Shown here piece by piece: positions 1-24,309 of a DNA stretch of 27,897 nt. Origin of the DNA: a virus. The notes under the pieces were generated by a model that worked only from the letters and a program-made list of their open reading frames with translations, did no database searches and was not told the DNA's origin. Positions within the stretch are counted from its first letter, which is position 1. Every line of letters begins with the position of its first letter. The stretch is taken from positions 1-27,897 of IMG/VR virus record IMGVR_UViG_3300047319_001241, one strand, 5' to 3'. A program made the translations under genes and the position numbers.

Positions 1-2352
1 GTCGTCGACATGCTGATGGGCGAAGAGGGCATCAGCGGCGTCGCCAACTACTACGGCCGCATCTGGGACGAAGAGACGCCCGAGCTTCAATGGCTGCTCG
101 CGTTCCAGTTCCCCGGCACCGGTGTCTTCGGCCAGTGGGAGGCGCTCGAGCGTCGCAACCCGTTCGTCGCCGCCGGCCTGGAGTCGGTGAAGGCGAAGAT
201 TCGAGACTGCCGCGTCGACATCGAGGCCGCCGAGGGCGTCGAGAACGGCGAACTGCACGCGAAGGTCGTCGAGTGGAATTTGAAGGAGTACCTCGAGCCC
301 GGCTTCGCGCGCGTGCTGGAGCAGATGGTCACGTCGCTGCTGTACGGCTTCTCGCTTCACGAAGTCTGCATGGAGCCGGTGCAGCACCAGCTGTTCGGCG
401 GCTTCGGTCTCGCCGTCGGCAAGCTGCAGCACCTGCTGGCGAAGTCGGTCTACGAAAACGGCTGGGTGACGCAGGACCGCGAGCTCAAGTTCATCAAGCA
501 GCGCGGCCCCGTCGACGGGCAGTTCATGTCGGTCGACCTGCCGTCGCAGAAGGTGTTGCTCACCAGCTGGAACCGCAACGGCGACAACTACGCGGGCTAC
601 TCCGTCTACCGCCCGGTTTGGTACCCGTGCCGCATCATGGAGCACCTGATGCGGTTGAACGGCGTCGCGTCGGTGCGCGAGTCGGCCGGTGTTCCGATCG
701 CCACGGTGGAGAAGGACGCCCCGACGATGACTGCGGGCGCGCGGAAGAAGCTGCAGCGCACGCTGATGAATCTCGTCTACCACGAGCAAGCGGCAATCGT
801 TTGCCCGCCGGGCGTGAAGCTGGAGTGGTGGACGTCGCCGGGCCGCGACAAGTCGGGCCTGATGAAGACGTACGAATCGCTCGGCAAGCTGTGCCTGTTC
901 CAGACGCAGTCGCAGCAGATGGCGCTCGGGCTCAGCGAGACCGGCAGCCGCAGCGTCGGCGAGACGCACGCGTCGACGTCGGAGCAGTTCGCCCAGGGCG
1001 TGATGTCGCTGCTCGAAGAGGTGCTCAACGGCTCCGGGCGCCGGCCGTACACCGGGTTGTCGCGCAAAATCATCGACGCCAACTTCGGCCCGCAGGTCGC
1101 GTACCCGAAGATTCGCCTGTCGCTGAAGCGCAGCTCGCTCGAGCCCGACGTGTTCGCCCCAGCCGTGCAGCAGCTGCTGGCGGCGAACGCGCTCACGTGG
1201 CGCGCGGAAGACGAGAACGGCGCGCGAGAAATCCTCGGCCTGCCGCCCATCGATGAGGACGAGCGCGCGACCGCACGCGCGGCGCTGCCTCCAGCAGGTA
1301 CGACTCAGCCGAACGCCGGTGCACAAGCTCCAGAGCACATGGCACCGGGTTCGCCCGGTGTTGGAGCCCCCCCAAGCCCGGCGGGCGGCAGTTCTCCGAA
1401 GCGCGTCGACGTCGTGCGGCCGAAGGGCTCGAAGCCGATCAGCAACGTACAGGTGAGGCGCCCGCCCGGCGCGCCGCCCGTCAGCGACGTGCACATCCAC
1501 CCGAAGAAGATGCAGCGCGACTGGCAGCCGTGGCGCGAGCTTCGGCCGAGCGAGCAGCACATCGACCTGAAGGCCATCGACAGCTTCCTCAACCGCGCGC
1601 GCGACCACTTCGACACCGAGGCCCGCGCCCAGGCCGCGGCGATGCTCACCCGCGCCAAGGCGCAGATTCGCGACGGGATTGCCCGCGGCGACTTCCACGT
1701 GAAGCTCGACACCGGCGACGTCGAGCGCTTCGTGCGCAGCTACATCGACAAGTGCGCGGCGTTCGGTCGCGAGCAGGTGGCGGCGGAGCGGGCCAAGGGC
1801 AACGGCGCGGTGAAGGCGGAGCGGGCGGACGGCGACCAGCGACTCGCGCCCGTCGCGCGGCAGTTCGCGGTCGGCGACGACGCGGAGGCCGAGAAGCAGA
1901 AGGCCGCGATGGCGAAGCAGGTCGCCCGCCGCATCGGCAACCGCATCGAGTCGAACCTGGAAAACGACATGCTCAACGTCGACCGCACCGGCGGCGACGA
2001 AGATGAGGCGATTTCGGAGACGATGGGCGACCTGCTCGACTCCGGCGCGTTCCGGCAGGACGCCGGGCTGCTCACCACCAAGGCGTTCAACGTCGGGCGC
2101 GAAGAGTTCGCGGCGGCCCACGGTGACGAGGTGGAGTCGGTCGAGCTCTCCGCGATTCTCGACAACGCGGTGTGCACCAACTGCGAAGACCTCGACGGCA
2201 GCACGTTCGACTTCGGCAGCGACGACCACGACGAGCACACCCCGCCGCTGAAGGAGTGCGAGGGTGGAGATGCCTGTCGGTGCATGCTCGTATATAACTT
2301 CGATAACGGCACTGGTGCCGCTACCGGAGAAGACGACGATGCCGAAGAGTAG
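1..2352 (+). CDS. Mu gp29-like portal protein fused to a protein-F-like head morphogenesis domain (5' partial)
   Basis: The first ATG is at position 10, but the frame stays open to the window edge and no ribosome binding site is visible, so the gene probably starts upstream. From ATG 10 the product has 780 residues. Residues about 20-400 resemble the DUF935/Mu gp29 portal family, which forms the dodecameric DNA gate at the capsid vertex. A Pro/Gly/Ala-rich linker (about 415-500) follows. The C-terminal region (about 505-780) matches Mu protein F-type minor head proteins: it ends in a cysteine cluster, C722 and C725 (CTNCEDLDG), then C750, C756 and C758 (DACRC). In Mu and many relatives portal and F are separate genes, so this is a natural fusion. 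The family's usual PLH before the last cysteines is PLK here. The stop overlaps the next gene by 14 bp. Confidence 0.85.
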
Positions 2353-13621: not shown

Positions 13622-13917
13622 GCCCGACGTGGGAGGGCGACCAGCGTCGCGGGTGGTTCGGCTACAGCCCGTCGACGAAACAGGGCGTGCCAGCGCAGCC
13701 CAGGCACCGCAGCCGGGTCACCATCGAGCGGGCGTTCGAGGTGGCCCAGCCGGCGCTCGACGTCTGGCTCACGACGCGGCGGCACCCCGAGCAGCCACCT
13801 TTCTCGGGCGGCGTGTTGGACTGGCCGCAGTGGCTCAGGCAGGCTCTTGAGGTGATGGACGTCGAGCAGGCGGTCGTCGAAGCTGTCGTTGCGGGAGAGG
13901 AGCGGCAGCGTGGGTGA
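13561..13917 (+). CDS. Tail assembly chaperone, frameshift extension (gpT domain)
   Basis: This reading frame is one base back from the short chaperone and has no start codon in its conserved front part. From 13561 it reads AFLRAVVWRLAYYRRPGRP, then TWEGDQRRGWFGYSPSTKQG, and ends at TGA 13917. The coding character begins well before the first possible start (GTG 13687), so it is most simply the C-terminal domain of a fusion made by a -1 frameshift. The fused product of 13160-13917 would have 252 residues. Long chaperones of this kind recruit tube subunits to the tape measure. The end overlaps the tape measure start by 8 bp. Confidence 0.75.
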   Translation, partial: AFLRAVVWRLAYYRRPGRPVGPTWEGDQRRGWFGYSPSTKQGVPAQPRHRSRVTIERAFEVAQPALDVWLTTRRHPEQPPFSGGVLDWPQWLRQALEVMDVEQAVVEAVVAGEERQRG

Positions 13918-15781
13918 CATCACGACGCACATCGAGCTGACCGGCAACGCGGGCGACGCGAAGAAAGCGCTCGAAGACGTCGGCGGCTCGGCGCACGAGG
14001 CGAAGACCGCCTTCGCCGACTTCAAAGAGGAACTGGAGAAGGGCTCAGCGGAAATCGGGAAGCAAATCACCGCGTACGCGCTGCTCGAGCGCGCGGTCGA
14101 AGGTGCGCTCGAATTCGTGAAGGAGTTCACGGCCGAGTCCATCAAGCTCGCCGAGGCGCAAGAGACGGCCGACCGCAACCTGTCGCTGTTCGCCGGGAAC
14201 CTCACCGCCGCCTTCAAGTCGCAGGCGGAGGAGTTCGAGAAGACCTACGGCGTCGCGGCCGAGCTGACCGAGAAGGTGCAGACGCTCGCCCTGGCGCACG
14301 GCGCCGACCGCGATCAGGTTCTGGAGTTGACCGAGGCCACCACCAAGTGGGCGGCCATCACCGGCACCGACGCCGCGGGCGCCGCGCAGCAGCTCGTCGT
14401 CGCGGTCGAGGCCGGGCGGCACGCGTCGCGACAGTTGGGCATCCAGTGGGAGGAGACGGGCGACAAGTCGCAGGACCTGAAGAACGCCATCGACGCGCTC
14501 AACGAGAAGCTGGCCGGCGCCGACCCCACGGCCGAAGCGACGCTGCAGGGCCGGACTCAGCGCGCGGCGATCAGCTTCGACAATCTCAAAAAGGCGTTCG
14601 GCAACTGGATCACGGTCGTCGAGTCGAAGGCCGGGGTGCTCGACAAGCTGGGCGGCGCGCTCGATTCGATTCGCGGCGGGCTCTCGGCGAAGGGCGCCGG
14701 GGCGATCGCTGGCGGTCTGGCATACGGCCCGCTCGCCGCCGTCGCGGGCGCGGGCATCGGCAGCCTGGGTGAGAACGACATCGAGCCCGCGCCGGCGCAA
14801 CAGAACTACGACCAGCAGCTGATCGGCTCCAACACCGACGAGAAGACGCTCGCCGCGCTGAAGAAAGCGAACGAAGCCCAGGCGAAGGAGCAGCAGAAGA
14901 GCATCGAGGAGAAGCTCAAGAAGGACGCCGAGTACTGGGACAAGCGCGGCGTCACGCATCAGGCCGAAGACGCGAAGGAGAACGCGGAGGCCGAGCGGCA
15001 CAGCGAGGAACTTCAGGCGCAAGAGCAGGCGGCCTACGACAAGTCGCTCACCGATGAGCAGACCGCGTACGACGCGCAGCTGACCGCACTGAAAGAGGAG
15101 AAGCTAAAGGAGGAGGAGGAGGTTCAGAAGTCACAGGATCGCCAGTTCGAAATCAACCTCCACGCGTGGCAGAAGTACGAGAAAGCCCGCTTCAAAGCGC
15201 AGGAAGAGGCGAACAAGAAACTCGAAGACGCCGAGAAACAGGCGGCCGAGGAAATCGGCGCGGTCATCACGAACACCATCACCTCGACGTTGCAGAACGC
15301 GATGAACGGGCAGCAGCAGTCGTGGCAGGACGTGGCGGGCTCGGCAGCGAGCTCCATCCTCACCATCGTCGGCGGCATTGTCGGCGCGTACTTCGGAGCG
15401 CCTCAACTCGGCGGCGCGCTCGGCTCCCTCGCCGGCACGGCCGCCAGCTACGGCATCCACCAAATCAAGCACGAGGGCGGCATGGTCGAGCGGTACCACG
15501 CGGGCGGGTACCCCGGCACGCTCGGCCCCAATGAGCAGATGATTATCGCCGAGGCGGGCGAAGGCGTCGTCGACAAGCGCACGATGGCGCGCATGGGTGG
15601 ACCGGGCGGGCTCGAGCAGGCTAAGCGCGGTGGTGGCGGAGGCGGGCGCACCGTGGTGATTCAAGCGATGGACGCGCAGAACGTTCGCGACGGCTTCGAA
15701 GGTCGGCTCGGGCGCGGCATGTCGATCGCGCTGCGCACCGGTCGCGGCTCCCTCCCGCGCGTCGTGGGGCTCGGGCGATGA
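13910..15781 (+). CDS. Tape measure protein
   Basis: The product has 623 residues from GTG 13910, chosen because GGGAGAGGAG lies just upstream and the protein begins with a typical GDITTHIELTGNAGDAKKAL. It is largely helical, with two hydrophobic glycine-rich stretches (about residues 260-285 and 475-530) that could insert into the host membrane at DNA entry. A long Glu/Lys/Gln/Ala coiled coil lies between them (about 320-460). The end has the Gly-rich pattern common in tape measures (YHAGGYPGTLGPNEQMIIAE, then a G-run). At about 1.5 angstrom per residue it predicts a tail near 90-95 nm. The start lies inside the end of the chaperone frame, and its TGA overlaps the next ATG. Confidence 0.88.
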   Translation: MGDITTHIELTGNAGDAKKALEDVGGSAHEAKTAFADFKEELEKGSAEIGKQITAYALLERAVEGALEFVKEFTAESIKLAEAQETADRNLSLFAGNLTAAFKSQAEEFEKTYGVAAELTEKVQTLALAHGADRDQVLELTEATTKWAAITGTDAAGAAQQLVVAVEAGRHASRQLGIQWEETGDKSQDLKNAIDALNEKLAGADPTAEATLQGRTQRAAISFDNLKKAFGNWITVVESKAGVLDKLGGALDSIRGGLSAKGAGAIAGGLAYGPLAAVAGAGIGSLGENDIEPAPAQQNYDQQLIGSNTDEKTLAALKKANEAQAKEQQKSIEEKLKKDAEYWDKRGVTHQAEDAKENAEAERHSEELQAQEQAAYDKSLTDEQTAYDAQLTALKEEKLKEEEEVQKSQDRQFEINLHAWQKYEKARFKAQEEANKKLEDAEKQAAEEIGAVITNTITSTLQNAMNGQQQSWQDVAGSAASSILTIVGGIVGAYFGAPQLGGALGSLAGTAASYGIHQIKHEGGMVERYHAGGYPGTLGPNEQMIIAEAGEGVVDKRTMARMGGPGGLEQAKRGGGGGGRTVVIQAMDAQNVRDGFEGRLGRGMSIALRTGRGSLPRVVGLGR

Positions 15782-16626
15782 GCAACGGCTACTCGGTGAG
15801 CAACCTCGTGCTGCCGCTCGCGCCGGCCGCCATCAAGTTCGAGCTGAGCGGCAGCCCGCTGGCGCCGGCCTTCGGCTCGTCGGCATTTCTGCAGGACAAC
15901 CGGATGGACAAGGTCGTCAGCTTCGCGTCCGAAGACCTGAGCGCCGACACGCTAGACATCGACATCGACATGGGCGGAGCGGTGAGCCTGGGCGGCTTCG
16001 CGATTCTCAACCACAACTTCGCCTCGGTCGGGTGCAACTGCACCGTCATCTGCTCGGCCGCCTCCGACTACTCCTCACCCACCACGGCAAAGGCGGCGAC
16101 GCCGCTGACGAGCACCCGCTTCAAATCGAAGGACCACGCGCTGCAGTTCACTCCGGTCTCGAAACGGTACTGGAAACTGCGCTTCAGCAACGGCGACGCG
16201 CTCGTTCCGTACATCGGCGAGGTCTGGGCGTTCGGAGCCGCGGTGACGCTGCCGCGATTCAGCATCTACGGCTCGGGCGAATCGCGCGACGTGTTCGGCC
16301 CCGAGGTGGACTTCGCCAATGGCAACAAGACCGCCTACTTTCTCGGCGGGCCGGTGCGCACGAAGAACTACCAGTTCGCCGACCTCTCGGCGTCGGACCT
16401 CGCCGCGTATGACGCGCTCTGGGACGCGACGAAGGGCTTCACGCTGCCGTTCCTCTGGCTCGAAGACATTGAGTCGACCGCCACAGCCGCGACGGTCCCC
16501 GCGCAGGAGTGCATCTTCGGGCGGTTCGAGCTGCCGTCGAACGCGTACGCCCAAGACGACTACGGCATCTTTCAGCCGGGGGCGCCGTTCAACATTCGCA
16601 GCCTCGGGCGTGACGTCGGCTCATGA
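15778..16626 (+). CDS. Distal tail protein-like, with galactose-binding-type beta domain
   Basis: The product has 282 residues from ATG 15778 (ATGA overlap with the tape measure). Residues about 10-155 have the pattern of a discoidin/galactose-binding jelly roll: ADTLDIDIDMGGAVSLGGFA, then NHNFASVGCNCTVIC and SKRYWKLRFSN. The C-terminal half (about 160-282) has FGPEVDFANGNKT and a strand-rich core with FGRFELPSNAY, like proteins that join tube end and hub. In Mu-like siphophages and many lactic phages the gene after the tape measure encodes the distal tail ring. I infer that role; receptor binding through the galactose-binding-type domain is possible. Confidence 0.65.
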   Translation: MSNGYSVSNLVLPLAPAAIKFELSGSPLAPAFGSSAFLQDNRMDKVVSFASEDLSADTLDIDIDMGGAVSLGGFAILNHNFASVGCNCTVICSAASDYSSPTTAKAATPLTSTRFKSKDHALQFTPVSKRYWKLRFSNGDALVPYIGEVWAFGAAVTLPRFSIYGSGESRDVFGPEVDFANGNKTAYFLGGPVRTKNYQFADLSASDLAAYDALWDATKGFTLPFLWLEDIESTATAATVPAQECIFGRFELPSNAYAQDDYGIFQPGAPFNIRSLGRDVGS

Positions 16627-19049
16627 GCGACACGTTCCAGTCGCTGCTGGCGCAGGACGGCCGCGGCATTTGGTGGGGGCTCGAGGTCTCGTTCGACCAG
16701 GACTTCTCGACCGTCGCCTACCGCTGGGCCACGCACTCGGGCGTCGTCGGCGGCCACTTCTTCGAAGCTCGTCTTGTCTCGCCGCTGCGCGACATCACCC
16801 GCGGCTTCGGCACCGACCACCTGCCGGCCGCCGCCAACCTCGACGTCGAGCTCGACAACACCGACTTCGCGGTCGACTTCCTCTGCAACCCGACCACCTT
16901 CGAGACGAACACCGTGCGCGCGCGGTACCGGCTGCTGATGGGCGTCTTCAGGATTGACCCGGCCAACCCGAACGCGGCGGTGACGGTGCTGACGCAGACG
17001 ATTGGCTATTTCGTCTCGCTCGACTTCCCGACGCAGTACGATGACCGCATCGTGCTGTCGCTGGCAGATGATCAGCTCGGGCAGCTGAACGACCTGCTCA
17101 CCCCGCCGACGACGAACGACTGGCTCACCGCAGGCAACGCGGCGACGGACCCGCTCGTGAGTGCCACCGGCGTCGTGCCGAACATCGACTTCAATCAGCC
17201 CTGGCCGTTGATGTTCGGCGCCGGCAAGGTGCCGGGGTTACCCATCACCCAGCGCTACACCGGCGCTGGCGGATCGTTCACGTGGCCCGATGGGAACACC
17301 ACCGGCAGCGTCGCGGGTGGTGGCTGGCGAATGATTATGGTCTGCGCGACCGCCGAACTGTCGGTGGTGAACACCGCGGACGTTGTCGCGCTCGAAGGCG
17401 TGTTCCGCTCGGCGCTCGCGTTCCAAACGCAATGGGCGAACAAGACCATCTCGATTCCGAGTTCTCACACCTTCCCCGACGGCACCAAGGAACTGATTTG
17501 GTCCGCGCAGAAATCGGAGTCGTTCACCGCAAATGGCTACAACTGGAAGCTGCTGTGGATCGCCTTCAACGGCGCTGGGTACTCTGATTGGTTTCAGGCG
17601 ACGTTCCCGTCGTCGGCCGCCGCGGGCTCGCCTGGACCGAGCACGCCTTCAGCTGACCCCAACGACGCATGGGGCAGCGACGCGCAGTTCCTCGCGTTCG
17701 ACCACTTCAACGTCTACTCGTTCGGTGCCCTCTCGGCGGTGAACGGCGTCGCGAACACGAATCAGAACCCGGTCGACGTCATTCAGGACCTGATTCAGTA
17801 CTACAGCTACATGCGAGCCTTCACTGGCGGCGCCATCGACACGGCGCGGTTCGACCGCGCGCGCGCAGCTCGCCGCGGCTTCTACGTGAAAGGCACTGTC
17901 TCGGTGCAGTTCGCGTCGAGCATATCCACCGAGGCCGTCGTCACCGGCAAGGACCCGGTCATCGGCGGGCAGTTGGCGTACAAGGGCGGCGTGCTGCGGC
18001 AGGCCCTCACCGGCGTGTGCGGCTCGAGCGACGTCGACCTGTTCCTCACGTACAACGGGCAGGCTGCCGTCTCGGTTCAAATCGCCGACTTCCAATCGGC
18101 GACCGCCAGCTATCCGACCATCGAAGAGACCCACGTCATCGCCGATTCGAAGTTTCGCCGCGTGCCGTCGCTCGACGAGCGGTGGTCACCGTTCAACGCC
18201 TGCTTCATCAGCACGCCCAACAACGGCGGCGAGCTCGGCCCGTTCATCAACCGAACGGCGAAGACGGCCTGGGGTGACCGAACCATCGTCAAGCACCTCG
18301 ACGGCAGCTGGTGGCCGTACCTCACCGAGAACATTCTCACCCAGCCGTCGCTCAGCTACGCCGAGCAGGAGTCGCTGGTGTGGAGCGCGCGTAGCCTCGA
18401 AGCGAAGGCCCGACCCGTCGAGCAGTTCGACACCGACTTCGGCTTCTTCGGGCTCAACCTCGACCTGGGCGACGATTTCCTCTACTCGCGCACGCGCGGC
18501 GGGTTGTCGGACGTCTACACCGACGCGCTGTTCCGGGTGGAACAGATGATCATCCACGCGGAGACCGGCGCGGTCAGCCTCACCGCGGTATTCATGGACG
18601 ACCTGCTCACGGTGCAGGCGTACCTGCTCGACGACGAGACGCTGCTCACCCGGAAGAACAGCGGCGGCGGCCGCACGGCGACCGTGGCCGACTCGAGCAC
18701 CACCGTCACCTTCTCGTCGGGCTCTCTCATCACCGATGGCGTCGCGCCGGGCGACCACCTCATCTTGAAAGACACCACCGAGACCGCGCGCGGCTACACG
18801 CGGAACCGGGCGCTGAAGATTGCGAGCGTGACCGACGCGACCCACCTCGTCATCACCGACCCGTCGCTCAACTTCGGCGGTGGCGCCGCGGTCGTCGCCT
18901 GGGAGATTCGCCGGAGCGAGGCGACCTACCCGACCGTCGTCAGCGACGCGACCCACTACCCCAACGGCGGGCTGATGTATGGGAAGGTCTCGAACGAGTC
19001 TGACCAGTACGGCGACGCGACCGCCGCCAACGAATTGCTCGACGGGTGA
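16623..19049 (+). CDS. Tail hub / central tip protein
   Basis: The product has 808 residues from ATG 16623 (ATGA overlap with the preceding stop). The first ~180 residues read as hub-type beta barrels (LDVELDNTDFAVDF, RARYRLLMGVFRID, TIGYFVSLDFP). The region about 190-360 is Gly/Ser/Trp-rich and looks like an inserted lectin-type domain (FTWPDGNTTGSVAGGGWRM, GYSDWFQATFPS). About 375-690 returns to hub-like sequence: the NPVDVIQDLIQYYSY helix is typical of siphovirus hub proteins. At about 595-630 there is a DFGFFGLNLDLGDDFLYSRT segment with a following VEQMIIHAETGAVSLTAVF strand. The last ~115 residues form an extra beta domain. The protein should close the tube and form the tail tip. Confidence 0.68.
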   Translation: MSDTFQSLLAQDGRGIWWGLEVSFDQDFSTVAYRWATHSGVVGGHFFEARLVSPLRDITRGFGTDHLPAAANLDVELDNTDFAVDFLCNPTTFETNTVRARYRLLMGVFRIDPANPNAAVTVLTQTIGYFVSLDFPTQYDDRIVLSLADDQLGQLNDLLTPPTTNDWLTAGNAATDPLVSATGVVPNIDFNQPWPLMFGAGKVPGLPITQRYTGAGGSFTWPDGNTTGSVAGGGWRMIMVCATAELSVVNTADVVALEGVFRSALAFQTQWANKTISIPSSHTFPDGTKELIWSAQKSESFTANGYNWKLLWIAFNGAGYSDWFQATFPSSAAAGSPGPSTPSADPNDAWGSDAQFLAFDHFNVYSFGALSAVNGVANTNQNPVDVIQDLIQYYSYMRAFTGGAIDTARFDRARAARRGFYVKGTVSVQFASSISTEAVVTGKDPVIGGQLAYKGGVLRQALTGVCGSSDVDLFLTYNGQAAVSVQIADFQSATASYPTIEETHVIADSKFRRVPSLDERWSPFNACFISTPNNGGELGPFINRTAKTAWGDRTIVKHLDGSWWPYLTENILTQPSLSYAEQESLVWSARSLEAKARPVEQFDTDFGFFGLNLDLGDDFLYSRTRGGLSDVYTDALFRVEQMIIHAETGAVSLTAVFMDDLLTVQAYLLDDETLLTRKNSGGGRTATVADSSTTVTFSSGSLITDGVAPGDHLILKDTTETARGYTRNRALKIASVTDATHLVITDPSLNFGGGAAVVAWEIRRSEATYPTVVSDATHYPNGGLMYGKVSNESDQYGDATAANELLDG

Positions 19050-19052
19050 CCG

Positions 19053-20066
19053 GTGCCCACGCTGCCGCCAGACGTGCCGTCGTGGTTCGACCGGGTTCGC
19101 AAGGACCCGCTCGGCTACGTCGGTGCGAACGTGTTGCAGCTGCTGCAGAACTATGCCGAGCGGAATCTCTTTCAGGTCGCGCACATCATCGACCCGGCGT
19201 TCGGCACGCACTACGGCGAGCACAACGAGCCCAACGTGCCGCGCGACGTCGGCGACGTAGCCTTCACCGGCGCGACGCCCACGATGGAGGCGGCGAAGTA
19301 CGCGACGGTCGGCAGCCACCCGGGCACCGGCGAAATCGACATGAGCTTCTCGGGCTTCACCTTCCCGACGCTCTGGGACTTCCCCGACATCTCGGTGCAA
19401 GCGACCTCGATGTCAGAGACCGGGGTGAACAAGCCGTGCATCATCACCTCGAACATCGTCAGCGGCACCGACATTCGCTTTTACGCGAACGTGCTCTCGT
19501 CGGCGCTCGGAGCTGGCAACGCCTGGGCGGTGGAAGACTCGCCCTTCTGCTTCGCGATTCACGGCACGCCTCGACCGCGTGGGCAGAACCTCACGCTCCC
19601 TGGCTTGTGGGCGCGCGGCAGCGGGCTGCGAATGGGCGAGTGGAACCTCGGAATCTTCGCGGCCTCGGACCTCTGGGCGCACTTCGGCGCCGGCCACAGC
19701 CAGTCGACCGGTGTGCACGCGGCGAAGGTGGTGCCGAAGTCGTGGGTGCACCTCGGGTGGAACGGCTCGACGACGTACACGAAGCTCGAAAACTCGACGA
19801 CCAACCCGGCGACCACCATCACCCGCGTCGGCACCGGGCACGTGCAGGTGAACTTCACCTCGACGTGGACGCTGCCCGCCCAGCCGTTCTTCGCGATCGA
19901 CTACCCGAGGCACAGCGGCGGCACGTCGTTCACGAAGCGCTACGTGGCGGTCGCGCCGTACTCGCTGCAGACCACCTCGCGGGTCGAGCTCTACATCTAC
20001 AGCTACAACGGCACGAACTGGGTTCGTGACGACACGGACTTCTGGGTGACGGTGTACGCCGCGTGA
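19053..20066 (+). CDS. Tail fibre / receptor-binding candidate 1
   Basis: The product has 337 residues from GTG 19053, 3 bp after the hub stop. A short helical N-terminus (WFDRVRKDPLGYVGANVLQLL) could attach to the hub. It is followed by a beta-rich body with many aromatic, Gly, Ser and Thr residues (SFSGFTFPTLWDFPD, WNGSTTYTKLENSTTNP, TTSRVELYIYSYNG). Length, composition and position after the hub fit a fibre or receptor-binding protein. I see no enzyme motif. Its stop overlaps the next gene as GTGA. Confidence 0.6.
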   Translation: MPTLPPDVPSWFDRVRKDPLGYVGANVLQLLQNYAERNLFQVAHIIDPAFGTHYGEHNEPNVPRDVGDVAFTGATPTMEAAKYATVGSHPGTGEIDMSFSGFTFPTLWDFPDISVQATSMSETGVNKPCIITSNIVSGTDIRFYANVLSSALGAGNAWAVEDSPFCFAIHGTPRPRGQNLTLPGLWARGSGLRMGEWNLGIFAASDLWAHFGAGHSQSTGVHAAKVVPKSWVHLGWNGSTTYTKLENSTTNPATTITRVGTGHVQVNFTSTWTLPAQPFFAIDYPRHSGGTSFTKRYVAVAPYSLQTTSRVELYIYSYNGTNWVRDDTDFWVTVYAA

Positions 20067-20596
20067 GCTACTCGAAACTTCAGCAGGTCATCACCGACTT
20101 CGGCCTGGGCTTCCAGGGCGTCAACCAGCTCGCGGCGAACATCATCGCGACCGCGACGCAGATGCTCGTCGCGCACGGGAACAAGGCGGCGACCTACTAC
20201 CAGAATCTCTCCAACGTCTTCGACTTCCAGTTCCTCGGGCTCCACAACGGCGGCGGCGTCCCGCGGTGCACGATGGTGGCGGGCGTCTACCCGAAGCCGC
20301 AGGGAACGGTCGCGCAGATTGTCTGGCAGTCGAACCCCATCATCACCAGCTTCACCCGCATCTCGACGGGCATCTACTTCGCGGGCGTGTCGGGGCTCCC
20401 GTCGTTCTTCGCCCACGCGGTTGCGATCGGCGCGAGCACCGCCGACGTGAACCTGCCGCCCGAGTGCCAGTGCAACGTCGACCCGACGCAGGGCGGAGTC
20501 GGCGTCTACGTCTCGACGCGCGCACTCGTCGCGGGGGCGTTCACGCTGACCGACATGAGCTTCTGCCTGACGCTGCAGGGCCAAGCACCGCCCTAA
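20063..20596 (+). CDS. Tail fibre / tip protein candidate 2
   Basis: The product has 177 residues from GTG 20063 (GTGA overlap). An N-terminal helix (SKLQQVITDFGLGFQGVNQL) is followed by a beta-rich part (IVWQSNPIITSFTRISTGIY, VYVSTRALVAGAFTLTDM). As the last gene of the tail module it is probably a distal tip or fibre protein, or a fibre assembly partner of the previous one. I do not recognise a family. Its TAA lies two bases from the end of a lipoprotein gene on the other strand, so the two units converge here. Confidence 0.55.
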   Translation: MSYSKLQQVITDFGLGFQGVNQLAANIIATATQMLVAHGNKAATYYQNLSNVFDFQFLGLHNGGGVPRCTMVAGVYPKPQGTVAQIVWQSNPIITSFTRISTGIYFAGVSGLPSFFAHAVAIGASTADVNLPPECQCNVDPTQGGVGVYVSTRALVAGAFTLTDMSFCLTLQGQAPP

Positions 20597-20745
20597 GGCG
20601 TGCCGGCGTCGACCGCGCCAGCGTCGTACCAGCTGCAATTTTCTATGGTGTAGACCTGATCGCACGGCGGAGCCGGAGCGATGTCGGGACCGCAGGCGGC
20701 GAGGGTAAGAGCAGCCAAGGTTGCAAGAATGACGGAGCGCATCAT
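20593..20745 (-). CDS. Small lipoprotein on the minus strand, moron-like
   Basis: This 50-residue gene starts at ATG 20745 after GGGGAGG with a 5-nt spacer, an excellent ribosome binding site. The product is a clear lipoprotein precursor: MMRSVILATLAALTLAAC with lipobox L-A-A-C (C18 lipidated), then G-P-D. The mature part has ~33 residues with two more cysteines (C28 and C37) and ends in YDAGAVDAGTP. Residue D at +3 after the cysteine is not the D at +2 that causes inner-membrane retention in Escherichia coli. It opposes the tail and lysis genes, so it may be expressed independently, like superinfection-exclusion lipoproteins of prophages. An outer-membrane spanin is another option, though one would expect it next to an i-spanin on the same strand. 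Confidence 0.75.
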   Translation of the reverse strand: MMRSVILATLAALTLAACGPDIAPAPPCDQVYTIENCSWYDAGAVDAGTP

Positions 20746-20769
20746 GTGGACCTCCCCAGTGTTGAAGGT

Positions 20770-20816
20770 TTGACGTGCAAGCGACTGTCTTTATTCAAGC
20801 CCCTGGAGTGGTGCAA
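20770..20816. promoter_or_regulatory. Candidate overlapping divergent promoters between lipoprotein and lysis genes
   Basis: Minus strand: TTGCAC (complement of 20811-20816), 17-nt spacer, TAAAGA (complement of 20788-20793), reading towards the lipoprotein. Plus strand: TTGACG (20770-20775), 16-nt spacer, TATTCA (20792-20797), reading towards the lysis genes. Both -10 elements are weak. The stretch is AT-richer than the surroundings, which supports a regulatory role, but host sigma preferences are unknown. Confidence 0.35.
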
Positions 20817-20847
20817 ATCGTGCGCGGTCGTCGTACCCTGATTGCCG

Positions 20848-21261
20848 ATGGCACCTCCGCGCTTCAACCCGCTCCCGAGCCCTCGCCCGCCGCACATCGA
20901 TCCGCACCCAACGCCGTTGGAGATGCCAGCCACCCGCGGCGACGTCCGATCCGAAAACAACAAGTCGACCAACGGGCAGAGCAAGGTTTTGCTCGGGGTG
21001 ATGGGCGCGATCGTCGCGATCGTCGGAAGCGCTACCACCGTCACCACGACGTACATCAATCGCAGCGCGGTCCACGAAGAGACCAAGCCCGCGGTGGAGC
21101 AGACGGCCGCCGTTCACGAGAAGCAGAAGGAGTTCGAGCAGCAGCTCGGCGAGACGAAGCGCCTCGACAAAGAGGCGCACGAGCGCATCGAGCAGCACCT
21201 CAACCACCTGGACGATCAGCAGGGCAAATTGCTCGAAGCGGTGCTCAAGGGCCGCCGTTGA
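20848..21261 (+). CDS. Membrane protein with coiled coil, lysis-cassette candidate
   Basis: The product has 137 residues from ATG 20848; TTG 20842 would add two. The first ~45 residues are Pro/Arg-rich and probably cytoplasmic. Residues about 47-71 are one membrane helix (KVLLGVMGAIVAIVGSATTV). The rest is a long charged coiled coil (HEKQKEFEQQLGETKRLDKE and onward) ending GRR. A single helix followed by a periplasmic coiled coil is the shape of an inner-membrane spanin, and it directly precedes the endolysin with an overlapping stop. Spanin genes usually lie after the endolysin and lack such a tail at the front, so the label is tentative. Other membrane-bound lysis regulators are possible. 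Confidence 0.6.
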   Translation: MAPPRFNPLPSPRPPHIDPHPTPLEMPATRGDVRSENNKSTNGQSKVLLGVMGAIVAIVGSATTVTTTYINRSAVHEETKPAVEQTAAVHEKQKEFEQQLGETKRLDKEAHERIEQHLNHLDDQQGKLLEAVLKGRR

Positions 21262-21800
21262 GCGTCTTCGAGGCGGCCATTCCGGTCGTCATGGTGCACG
21301 AGGGCGGCTGGCTCTCGCGCGACGACGACCCGCGCGGAGGCGAAACCAACTGGGGCATCAGCGAGCTCATCATCCGCGAGAAGGGCCTCACCAGTGAGGA
21401 ACTCGGCGTCGACCCGAACAACATCGGCGTACCCGGCTGGCTGAAGCCGATGCCGCGCGCGAACGCCGTCGCCATCTACCGCAAGTATTTCTGGCTGCCC
21501 GGCTACGAGCAGATTGCCGAGCAGACCAGCGCCTCCAAGCTGTTCGACGCCGCAGTGAACATGAGCGCCGCTCGAGCGCACTCGCTCGCCCAGGCCGCGG
21601 TCGGCGTGTCGGTCGACGGGCTCATCGGCCCTATCACCGTCGAGGCGATCAACAACGCCAACGACGGCATTCGCGGCTTCGTGCAGCTGTTCGCCGACAA
21701 GCTCCGCAGCTACTACGTCAACGTCGCGGCGAACTGCCCGCCGGCCTACGCGGCGAAGTGGCTGCCCGTCTGGCTCAAGCGAGCGACGTGGGGAACATGA
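21258..21800 (+). CDS. Endolysin, glycoside hydrolase family 108 (N-acetylmuramidase)
   Basis: The product has 180 residues from TTG 21258, which overlaps the previous TGA. No other start is possible because the conserved core begins at once: FEAAIPVVMVHEGGW has the family motif E-G-G with catalytic E15, followed by DDPRGGETNWGIS (family pattern D-P-x-D-x-G-G-x-T-N-x-G-I). The C-terminal half (FDAAVNMSAARAHSLAQAAV, VDGLIGPITVEAINNAN) matches the peptidoglycan-binding PG_binding_3 domain usually found with GH108. It cleaves peptidoglycan for host lysis. No signal peptide is present, so release needs a holin. The TTG start and tight coupling may limit its expression until late. Confidence 0.9.
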   Translation: MSVFEAAIPVVMVHEGGWLSRDDDPRGGETNWGISELIIREKGLTSEELGVDPNNIGVPGWLKPMPRANAVAIYRKYFWLPGYEQIAEQTSASKLFDAAVNMSAARAHSLAQAAVGVSVDGLIGPITVEAINNANDGIRGFVQLFADKLRSYYVNVAANCPPAYAAKWLPVWLKRATWGT

Positions 21801-22624: not shown

Positions 22625-22750
22625 ATGAAACTGGACGTTCTGACGGCCGAAGCCCTCCGGGTGTTCGGCCCCAAGGGAGTACGCACATGGGAACCCCCGC
22701 CGCCCCCGCCACCGATGCCGCCGCCGCAGCTGTCGCCAACGTCCCGCTGA
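22625..22750 (+). CDS. Possible small ORF overlapping the holin-like gene
   Basis: ATG 22625 has GGAG at 22612-22615. The 41-residue frame begins MKLDVLTAEALRVFGPKGV, which looks natural, but from about residue 23 it becomes a proline run that is the out-of-frame reading of the next gene. It could be a leader peptide whose translation affects the start at 22687, or chance. Confidence 0.3.
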   Translation: MKLDVLTAEALRVFGPKGVRTWEPPPPPPPMPPPQLSPTSR

Positions 22751-23349
22751 AGCCGGGCTGGAAGACCACCGAGCTCGCGCTCACCGTGGTGCTGCTCGGC
22801 GGCCTCGGCACGGTCATCGAGCAGCTGGTGCAGATGCTGCCGACGCTGGCCGGCACCCCAGGTATGCCGCCTTGGGCCGCGCCGCTGATGGCGTTCGCGC
22901 CGGTGCTGCTCGGGCTGATTGCGAAGCAGGTCGCCACCCACTACGTCACCGCGCGCAACGAGCTGAAGCTGGCGCAGAACGCCACTCCGGCGACCGATGC
23001 GAGCGCGGCCGATGCGCTCAACAAGGCGGTCAAGGCGGTCCTGCTGGTGATCGCCCTGGCCCTGGCGCTCGTGCCGTCGATCTCCTTCGCTCAGGCGGTC
23101 GACTGCGACCCCGACGCCGGCAACCCCGAGCCCGCGGTGAAGATGACGAAGGGCTCGCTGCTGCCCGAAGACTCGTGGGTGGTGTCGCCCGCGTGGATGT
23201 GCGCCGCCGGCAAGTCGCAGAACATCTGCACCGCCGAAGACGCCTCGCCGCCGTACACGACCATCGTGCTGTCGGCGACGGGCGGGGGTGTGGTGGTCGC
23301 GGCGGTGGTGCTGGGCGTGCTGGCGGCGACCGGCCACCTCAAGAAATAG
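22687..23349 (+). CDS. Four-helix membrane protein, holin candidate with cysteine-containing loop
   Basis: The product has 220 residues from ATG 22687 with GGGAG at 22675-22679. I see four hydrophobic segments: about 28-50 (LALTVVLLGGLGTVIEQLV), 60-82 (APLMAFAPVLLGLIAKQV), 118-138 (VLLVIALALALVPSISFAQA) and 192-215 (IVLSATGGGVVVAAVVLGVL). Between the third and fourth lies a ~55-residue loop with three cysteines. The first two helices suit a holin that opens the inner membrane for the endolysin. The third reads like a signal peptide, as if a second exported protein had been joined to a two-helix holin. The stop overlaps the end of a gene on the other strand by 11 bp. Confidence 0.6.
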   Translation: MGTPAAPATDAAAAAVANVPLKPGWKTTELALTVVLLGGLGTVIEQLVQMLPTLAGTPGMPPWAAPLMAFAPVLLGLIAKQVATHYVTARNELKLAQNATPATDASAADALNKAVKAVLLVIALALALVPSISFAQAVDCDPDAGNPEPAVKMTKGSLLPEDSWVVSPAWMCAAGKSQNICTAEDASPPYTTIVLSATGGGVVVAAVVLGVLAATGHLKK

Positions 23350-23707
23350 GCGGCAGTTCGACGAAGGCTGGGCAGCTGCAAACCCCGCCAGCTGGCGTTT
23401 CGAACCGGCAATCTTCGCCGGGCGGGTTCCCCACGAGGTGAAGCGCCCGAACGTGCTGGCAGCGCGCACAGCGCCCGGACCCGTGGAACGGTGGGTCGGG
23501 CGGCTGATTCGCGTCTGGGGCGGCGGCTGGGCGGTCGGACGGGGCCTTTTCGGCGACGATGCGGAGCAGCAAAGGCTCGTCGGTGACCGGGCAGATGGCG
23601 AACCACGCGTACCCGTGTGGGCGCTTCGGCGGCCGGGTGAACTCGCGCACCGGCAGACCGTGGTGATTCTGGCCGCACCGGGCGCAGTTGCCGATCGAGG
23701 TCTTCAC
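23339..23707 (-). CDS. Zinc-ribbon-like small protein, end of the minus-strand operon
   Basis: The product has 122 residues from GTG 23707, which overlaps the previous TGA as GTGA. The frame is open further upstream, but that stretch shadows the ASCH-like gene. Two cysteine pairs are visible: C8-x2-C11 near the start (IGNCARCGQNHHGLPVREF) and CARCQ around residue 80, and C-S-C near the end. Between them lies a strand segment (GYAWFAICPVTDEPLLLRIV). I infer a zinc-binding phage accessory protein of unknown function. It is the last gene of the minus-strand unit. Confidence 0.65.
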   Translation of the reverse strand: MKTSIGNCARCGQNHHGLPVREFTRPPKRPHGYAWFAICPVTDEPLLLRIVAEKAPSDRPAAAPDANQPPDPPFHGSGRCARCQHVRALHLVGNPPGEDCRFETPAGGVCSCPAFVELPPIS

Positions 23708-24309
23708 GGCTTCAACCGTCTGAACGTGATCACCCAAACCCAAGGATTGAGCGCCCAGCTGCCGGCGCCGTTGATGCTCTCCCAGAGCAAGCGGTAAGCG
23801 TCGACGTTGCCCGCACAGATGGGCACCGGCTTCATGCACGAGCAGCGCACCCCTTCGGCCCACGCATCGCTGGCGCTGATCGCCTGCAACCGCTCGACTC
23901 GCACCTCGGTGATTTCGAGGGTGATGCGCGAGGCCCAGCGCGGCATGAAGATGCTCGGCCGCCACTTCCCGAGGCCGCCCGCGCAGCCGCTCGGCGTCTC
24001 GTCGGGTTTGTCGGCGCGGTACATGAAGACGCCACGCTTCGGGTCGAGGTCTCTCGCCTTCACCGCGTCTTCGGCGGCCACGCTCGCCCACGTCTCGCGC
24101 ACCCAGAGCCGATCGCCGACGAGGCCGTAGGGGCACCAGACTTCCTGCTCAGGCGGGCCAAGGAACACGGCCGCACGACCCTTGTCGCCGAAGTTGAGCC
24201 ACCCGCCGTGCTCGCCGGTTGCCTTCACCACCCGCCGCGTCTGGCTCTTACTGTCGTCGAGCAGCGCCCGCACATTCGGAGCCGAGAACAAAATCCCCCG
24301 TTCCTTCAT
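23704..24309 (-). CDS. ASCH-like phage protein
   Basis: The product has 201 residues from ATG 24309 (overlap with the preceding TGA). It begins MKERGILFSAPNVRALLDDS then KSQTRRVVK, the signature of a large phage family with an ASCH/PUA-like fold. Further matches are CPYGLVGDRLWVRETW, WRPSIFMPRWASRITLEI, VERLQAISASDAWAEG, and the end LLWESINGAGSWALNPWVWV followed by F-R-R. ASCH proteins are thought to bind RNA or modified nucleosides, and the exact role of this phage family is not settled. Length and all blocks are as usual. Confidence 0.85.
   Translation of the reverse strand: MKERGILFSAPNVRALLDDSKSQTRRVVKATGEHGGWLNFGDKGRAAVFLGPPEQEVWCPYGLVGDRLWVRETWASVAAEDAVKARDLDPKRGVFMYRADKPDETPSGCAGGLGKWRPSIFMPRWASRITLEITEVRVERLQAISASDAWAEGVRCSCMKPVPICAGNVDAYRLLWESINGAGSWALNPWVWVITFRRLKP

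Follow-up and report, generated by a model that had tools for sequence, protein, structure and literature searches.

A small minus-strand lipoprotein gene between the tail and lysis modules of a phage genome fragment, and its candidate role in superinfection exclusion

Why would a phage set a 50-codon lipoprotein frame against its own late operon, just where the tail genes end and the lysis genes begin? The frame lies in an IMG/VR virus record of 27,897 nucleotides (27.9 kb), which covers part of a phage genome (hereafter “the window”). A preliminary description made from the letters of the sequence had seen in it a lipoprotein with a strong ribosome binding site, a candidate promoter of its own and perhaps a role in superinfection exclusion. 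The present analysis asks whether the frame is a gene at all, what it is related to, and which of the functions known for small phage lipoproteins it fits best.

The frame and its surroundings

On the plus strand of the window the modules follow one another in the order portal, head protease, scaffold, major head protein, neck, tape measure, large tail-end protein, two fibre-like genes and lysis module, and to the right of about 23.7 kb those genes that can be recognised lie on the minus strand. The features needed here are the following.

13889-15781, plus strand: tape measure
16623-19049, plus strand: 808-aa protein at the end of the tail module, a putative tail tip or hub by its position after the tape measure
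19053-20066, plus strand: tail-fibre-like gene, candidate receptor-binding protein (weak match to tail fibre family PHROG 11355, E 0.009)
20063-20596, plus strand: last tail-module gene, fibre-tip-like by position, its stop overlapping that of the lipoprotein gene
20593-20745, minus strand: small lipoprotein gene, 50-aa precursor (signal peptide 1-17, lipid-bearing Cys18, mature part of 33 aa)
20746-20847, unstranded: divergent intergenic stretch of 102 bp (G+C 57% versus 67%), in which no consensus promoter or terminator was found
20750-20755, minus strand: Shine-Dalgarno sequence GGAGGT, an exact 6 nt; the first ATG follows after 4 nt, the second after 7 nt
20848-21261, plus strand: first gene of the lysis module, with one transmembrane (TM) segment followed by a coiled-coil-like region, i-spanin- or holin-like by anatomy
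21258-21800, plus strand: endolysin with Glyco_hydro_108 and PG_binding_3 domains (Pfam 4e-14 and 5.5e-6; PHROG 315, 1.4e-26)

The lipoprotein frame reads MMRSVILATLAALTLAACGPDIAPAPPCDQVYTIENCSWYDAGAVDAGTP* and has a basic n-region, an uncharged h-region and the lipobox LTLAAC followed by G (LAAC), while the Pfam lipid-attachment model LPAM_1 matches it below the family cut-off (E 0.036). Cysteines stand at mature positions 1, 11 and 20, and a disulphide between Cys11 and Cys20 is possible. Upstream, the minus strand reads ACTGGGGAGGTCCAC-ATG-ATG; among 19 start sites compared, only that of the neck-protein gene has a longer Shine-Dalgarno run. The strong ribosome binding site and the lipobox of the preliminary description are therefore both present, and so is the placement on the opposite strand at the tail/lysis boundary, between the tail-fibre-like genes (ending at 20596) and the lysis genes (from 20848). 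The TAG of the lipoprotein gene and the TAA of the last tail gene overlap stop-to-stop in CTAA. Together with its 102 bp of upstream sequence, the frame fills a gap of 251 bp, wider than any other checked between adjacent plus-strand genes. The promoter candidate did not hold up: a consensus scan found no sigma-70-type promoter on either strand of the region, though the host may use other promoters. The same kind of scan gave no terminator belonging to the gene itself, such as morons carry, and there was no Rfam match.

The neighbours are less well defined. A profile search found no family for the 808-aa protein or for the product of 20063-20596, and the AlphaFold2 models of both fibre-like proteins were unusable (mean pLDDT about 35). 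By eye these two proteins have a common C-terminal pattern (ITR..TG...PxxFxA..IG/Y-like), perhaps the mark of a duplication. The TM/coiled-coil protein has only weak PHROG matches, all of coiled-coil type. Further right, the product of 22687-23349 shows several hydrophobic segments by eye, together with an internal stretch that resembles a signal peptide, AVKAVLLVIALALALVPSISFAQA; it is without a family match in the profile search and is a holin candidate by position.

A gene rather than a chance frame

A detector for a lipobox combined with a Shine-Dalgarno sequence picked out this frame as the only one of its kind in the window. Shuffled windows (n = 60) held 0.017 such frames each, and shuffling the 251-bp gap produced one in 7 of 20,000 trials. 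A size-limited version of the detector was also run over 311 kb from 33 phage loci that surround related endolysins, where it returned 22 small lipoproteins. Since all of them are plausible Rz1-type o-spanins, with no evident false positive, the false-positive rate of the detector is low; as many of these loci are closely related, the 22 lipoproteins do not amount to 22 independent cases.

Should the frame nevertheless be read as a chance ORF or a decayed and unexpressed remnant, in a gap that serves mainly as regulatory sequence for the lysis genes? Its codon signal would allow this: of the six frames it has the best codon fit, yet a weak one (-0.04 bits per codon, versus 0.18-0.79 for the phage genes), and third-position G+C is 0.71 versus 0.77-0.94 in those genes. 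Short signal-peptide genes often show a weak codon fit. The same reading is helped by the failure to find a conserved homologue and by a plus-strand stretch, TTGACG-N16-TATTCA, noticed by eye. It is opposed by the exact Shine-Dalgarno sequence, the lipobox, the tight overlap of the stops, the rarity of such frames in the shuffled gap and the clean record of the detector in other phage loci. A frame of this kind is unlikely to have arisen by chance, and the chance or remnant reading as a whole appears quite unlikely; 20593-20745 is probably a real orphan phage lipoprotein gene.

Relatives of the protein and of the phage

Searches for homologues of the frame came back empty in viral contigs, genome contigs (searched by peptide pattern, one genome per species, 84,980 species), phage records and nine genomes related through the large terminase (TerL). 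Matches at E <= 0.01 occur in two phyla, that of an Anaeromyxobacter bin (17 of 195 genomes) and that of an Acidobacteria bin (11 of 194), and range from E 0.0004 to 0.01. As they fall in larger frames and mostly cover the signal-peptide end, they carry no phylum signal, and they look like the common character of lipoprotein signals. A PDB search gave nothing below E 1. Matches to the NCBIfam models LptM, TrbK and a spurious ligase were rejected, being below the cut-offs and vanishing once the signal peptide was removed.

The profile comparisons behave in the same way. The whole precursor matches PHROG 1119 (Cor) at E 0.044, through the signal peptide only, and the match disappears when the mature part alone is searched against PHROG. 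Comparison of the mature part with a Cor/Llp/Rtp45 profile is empty (hhalign probability 0.1%), as is that with an o-spanin profile, and with the signal peptide kept the two score equally weakly. Because the weak PHROG match depends on the signal peptide, membership of the Cor/Llp/Rtp45 group is unsupported by sequence.

The phage itself has few kin in the collections. Searches with the 808-aa protein and the capsid gene recovered only one identical contig, a second record (L044/L045) that is identical across the first 18,233 bases of the window, ends there, and extends 3.7 kb upstream to include TerL; a TerL search added L047, a relative at 80% that is 6.9 kb long. Neither extends as far as the lipoprotein locus, and searches with the fibre genes and the TM gene found no relative that covers it. 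Among 379 genomes from the phylum to which the Myxococcota bin belongs, none matched the 808-aa protein. TerL has its best genomic relatives in an Anaeromyxobacter bin (50%), an Acetobacteraceae bin (47%), a Deltaproteobacteria bin (46%), and Acidobacteria bins and the Myxococcota bin (43%). These are hints of a Gram-negative host from soil or sediment; they do not fix the host, because genome bins can carry stray phage contigs.

Exclusion factor, conversion lipoprotein or spanin?

The place of the gene is one where known phages keep exclusion factors. Published work finds genes for receptor-binding proteins and exclusion immediately after gpJ (PMC8594841); in unrelated phages, the cor cassette comes immediately after the tail-fibre cluster (PMC13164509). 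In T1, cor is a minus-strand, convergent gene directly after the tail-tip/receptor-binding locus; in T5, llp lies beside pb5 on the opposite strand, divergent from it; rtp45 is opposite to a J-like gene; among these reversed exclusion genes the cor of N15 is an exception in strand. The window gene is likewise convergent with, and directly after, tail-fibre-like genes, whose identity as receptor-binding neighbours is itself weak. Like Cor, Llp and Rtp45, its product is small and has a lipobox signal peptide, but its mature part is shorter. The cysteines at mature positions 1, 11 and 20 compare with 1, 11 and 19 in Rtp45 (of which 11 and 19 are the disulphide pair, seen by cryo-EM as Cys30-Cys38; PMC12685063), and the second of them falls near mature 9-11 as in Llp (1, 11, 58) and T1 Cor (1, 9, 57). 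T1 Cor and Llp differ in having a mature part of 59-62 residues with a C-terminal cysteine partner, and Rtp45 in its 57-residue mature part, its different host, the lack of detectable sequence homology and the fact that its function has been shown. The cysteine pattern discriminates poorly, because Rz1-type o-spanins also have a cysteine at mature 9-10.

Judged from this anatomy, superinfection exclusion is the most likely of the readings, though short of even odds, and the gene is tentatively read as encoding a real small outer-membrane lipoprotein that may block a receptor. As the gene lies on the opposite strand, its expression would presumably be separate from that of the late lysis genes, whether early in infection or from a prophage; leftward read-through from the minus-strand gene 23704-24309 could reach it. 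The protein would be lipidated and, with Gly at +2 and no Asp, sent to the outer membrane, there perhaps to bind, on its periplasmic face, whichever receptor the neighbouring fibre protein uses. Sister phages would then be kept from adsorbing further, and progeny from being lost on debris, in the manner of T5 Llp, which blocks FhuA from the periplasmic side (PMC9586334), and of Rtp45, which similarly blocks LptD (PMC12685063). Against exclusion count a mature part of 33 residues versus 57-62 and the failure to find a homologue, a sign of conservation or a promoter. The exclusion guess made in the preliminary description is a reasonable lead, to which the likeness in strand and position to T1 cor, Rtp45 and Llp adds weight; no sequence relation to these beyond the signal peptide was found.

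Two other functions have to be weighed. The gene could be a moron for a different outer-membrane lipoprotein, active in lysogenic conversion or envelope change like lambda Bor and without a part in phage exclusion. Small lipoprotein morons without an assigned role do exist, and lambda bor too encodes a lipoprotein on the minus strand, opposed to the late operon at its lysis end. It differs in lying after the lysis genes, in its 81-residue mature part and in its cysteine spacing, and the only sequence relation is a pairwise match over the signal peptide. A position directly after the fibre genes suits exclusion better, and no lysogeny gene (integrase or repressor) was recognised among the proteins searched, a subset of the ORFs of an incomplete genome. 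Such a moron seems unlikely.

The main anatomical rival to exclusion is an o-spanin, a lysis lipoprotein encoded divergently from its partner, the TM/coiled-coil protein of 20848-21261. It deserves weight because the only lipoprotein signal in the window adjoins that gene, whose product has an i-spanin-like topology by reading, ahead of the endolysin, and the lysis module has no plus-strand o-spanin. The small size and the cysteine at mature 11 also resemble Rz1-type o-spanins, which in lambda lie beside the lysis genes. These are, however, proline-rich and encoded on the endolysin strand. All 22 of the 22 small lipoproteins near related GH108 endolysins are on that strand and are proline-rich after the second cysteine, whereas the window gene is opposite, 102 bp from the TM/coiled-coil gene, with one proline after mature Cys11; nor does its mature part match the o-spanin profile. 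The Kongari spanin survey knows embedded, overlapped and separated pairs only, and no mention of opposite or divergent pairs was found in its text (PMC6139136). An o-spanin is accordingly rather improbable, and a spanin pair whose outer-membrane half is divergent from partner and endolysin, with outer-membrane disruption under its own control, is slightly less probable still.

If the lipoprotein is an exclusion factor, then the pairing of a receptor-blocking lipoprotein with a receptor-binding gene would reach past the enterobacterial siphophages into a lineage with Myxococcota/Deltaproteobacteria and Acidobacteria genome bins among its terminase relatives, and this lipoprotein would be shorter than any of the four exclusion factors compared. 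Genes of such size are missed by size cut-offs, and position, strand and lipobox together are a usable way to find them.

Some minor observations concern other parts of these genomes. In 22 of the 33 GH108 loci (L002-L040) the endolysin is closely preceded, 22-255 bp ahead of the GH108 match (for example L035:5791-5955), by a small proline-rich Rz1-like lipoprotein on the same strand. The minus-strand gene 23704-24309, at the left end of the right arm, whose genes run towards the late operon, encodes a strongly conserved phage protein without assigned function (PHROG 874, E 2.6e-70). The gene before TerL in the second record (L045:15-470) matches PHROG 14517 and the DNA repair family PHROG 5429. 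The C-terminal stretch of the portal protein (window 10-2352, PHROG 113), at about residues 626-776, weakly matches head morphogenesis/protease families, so that a portal-MuF-like fusion is possible.
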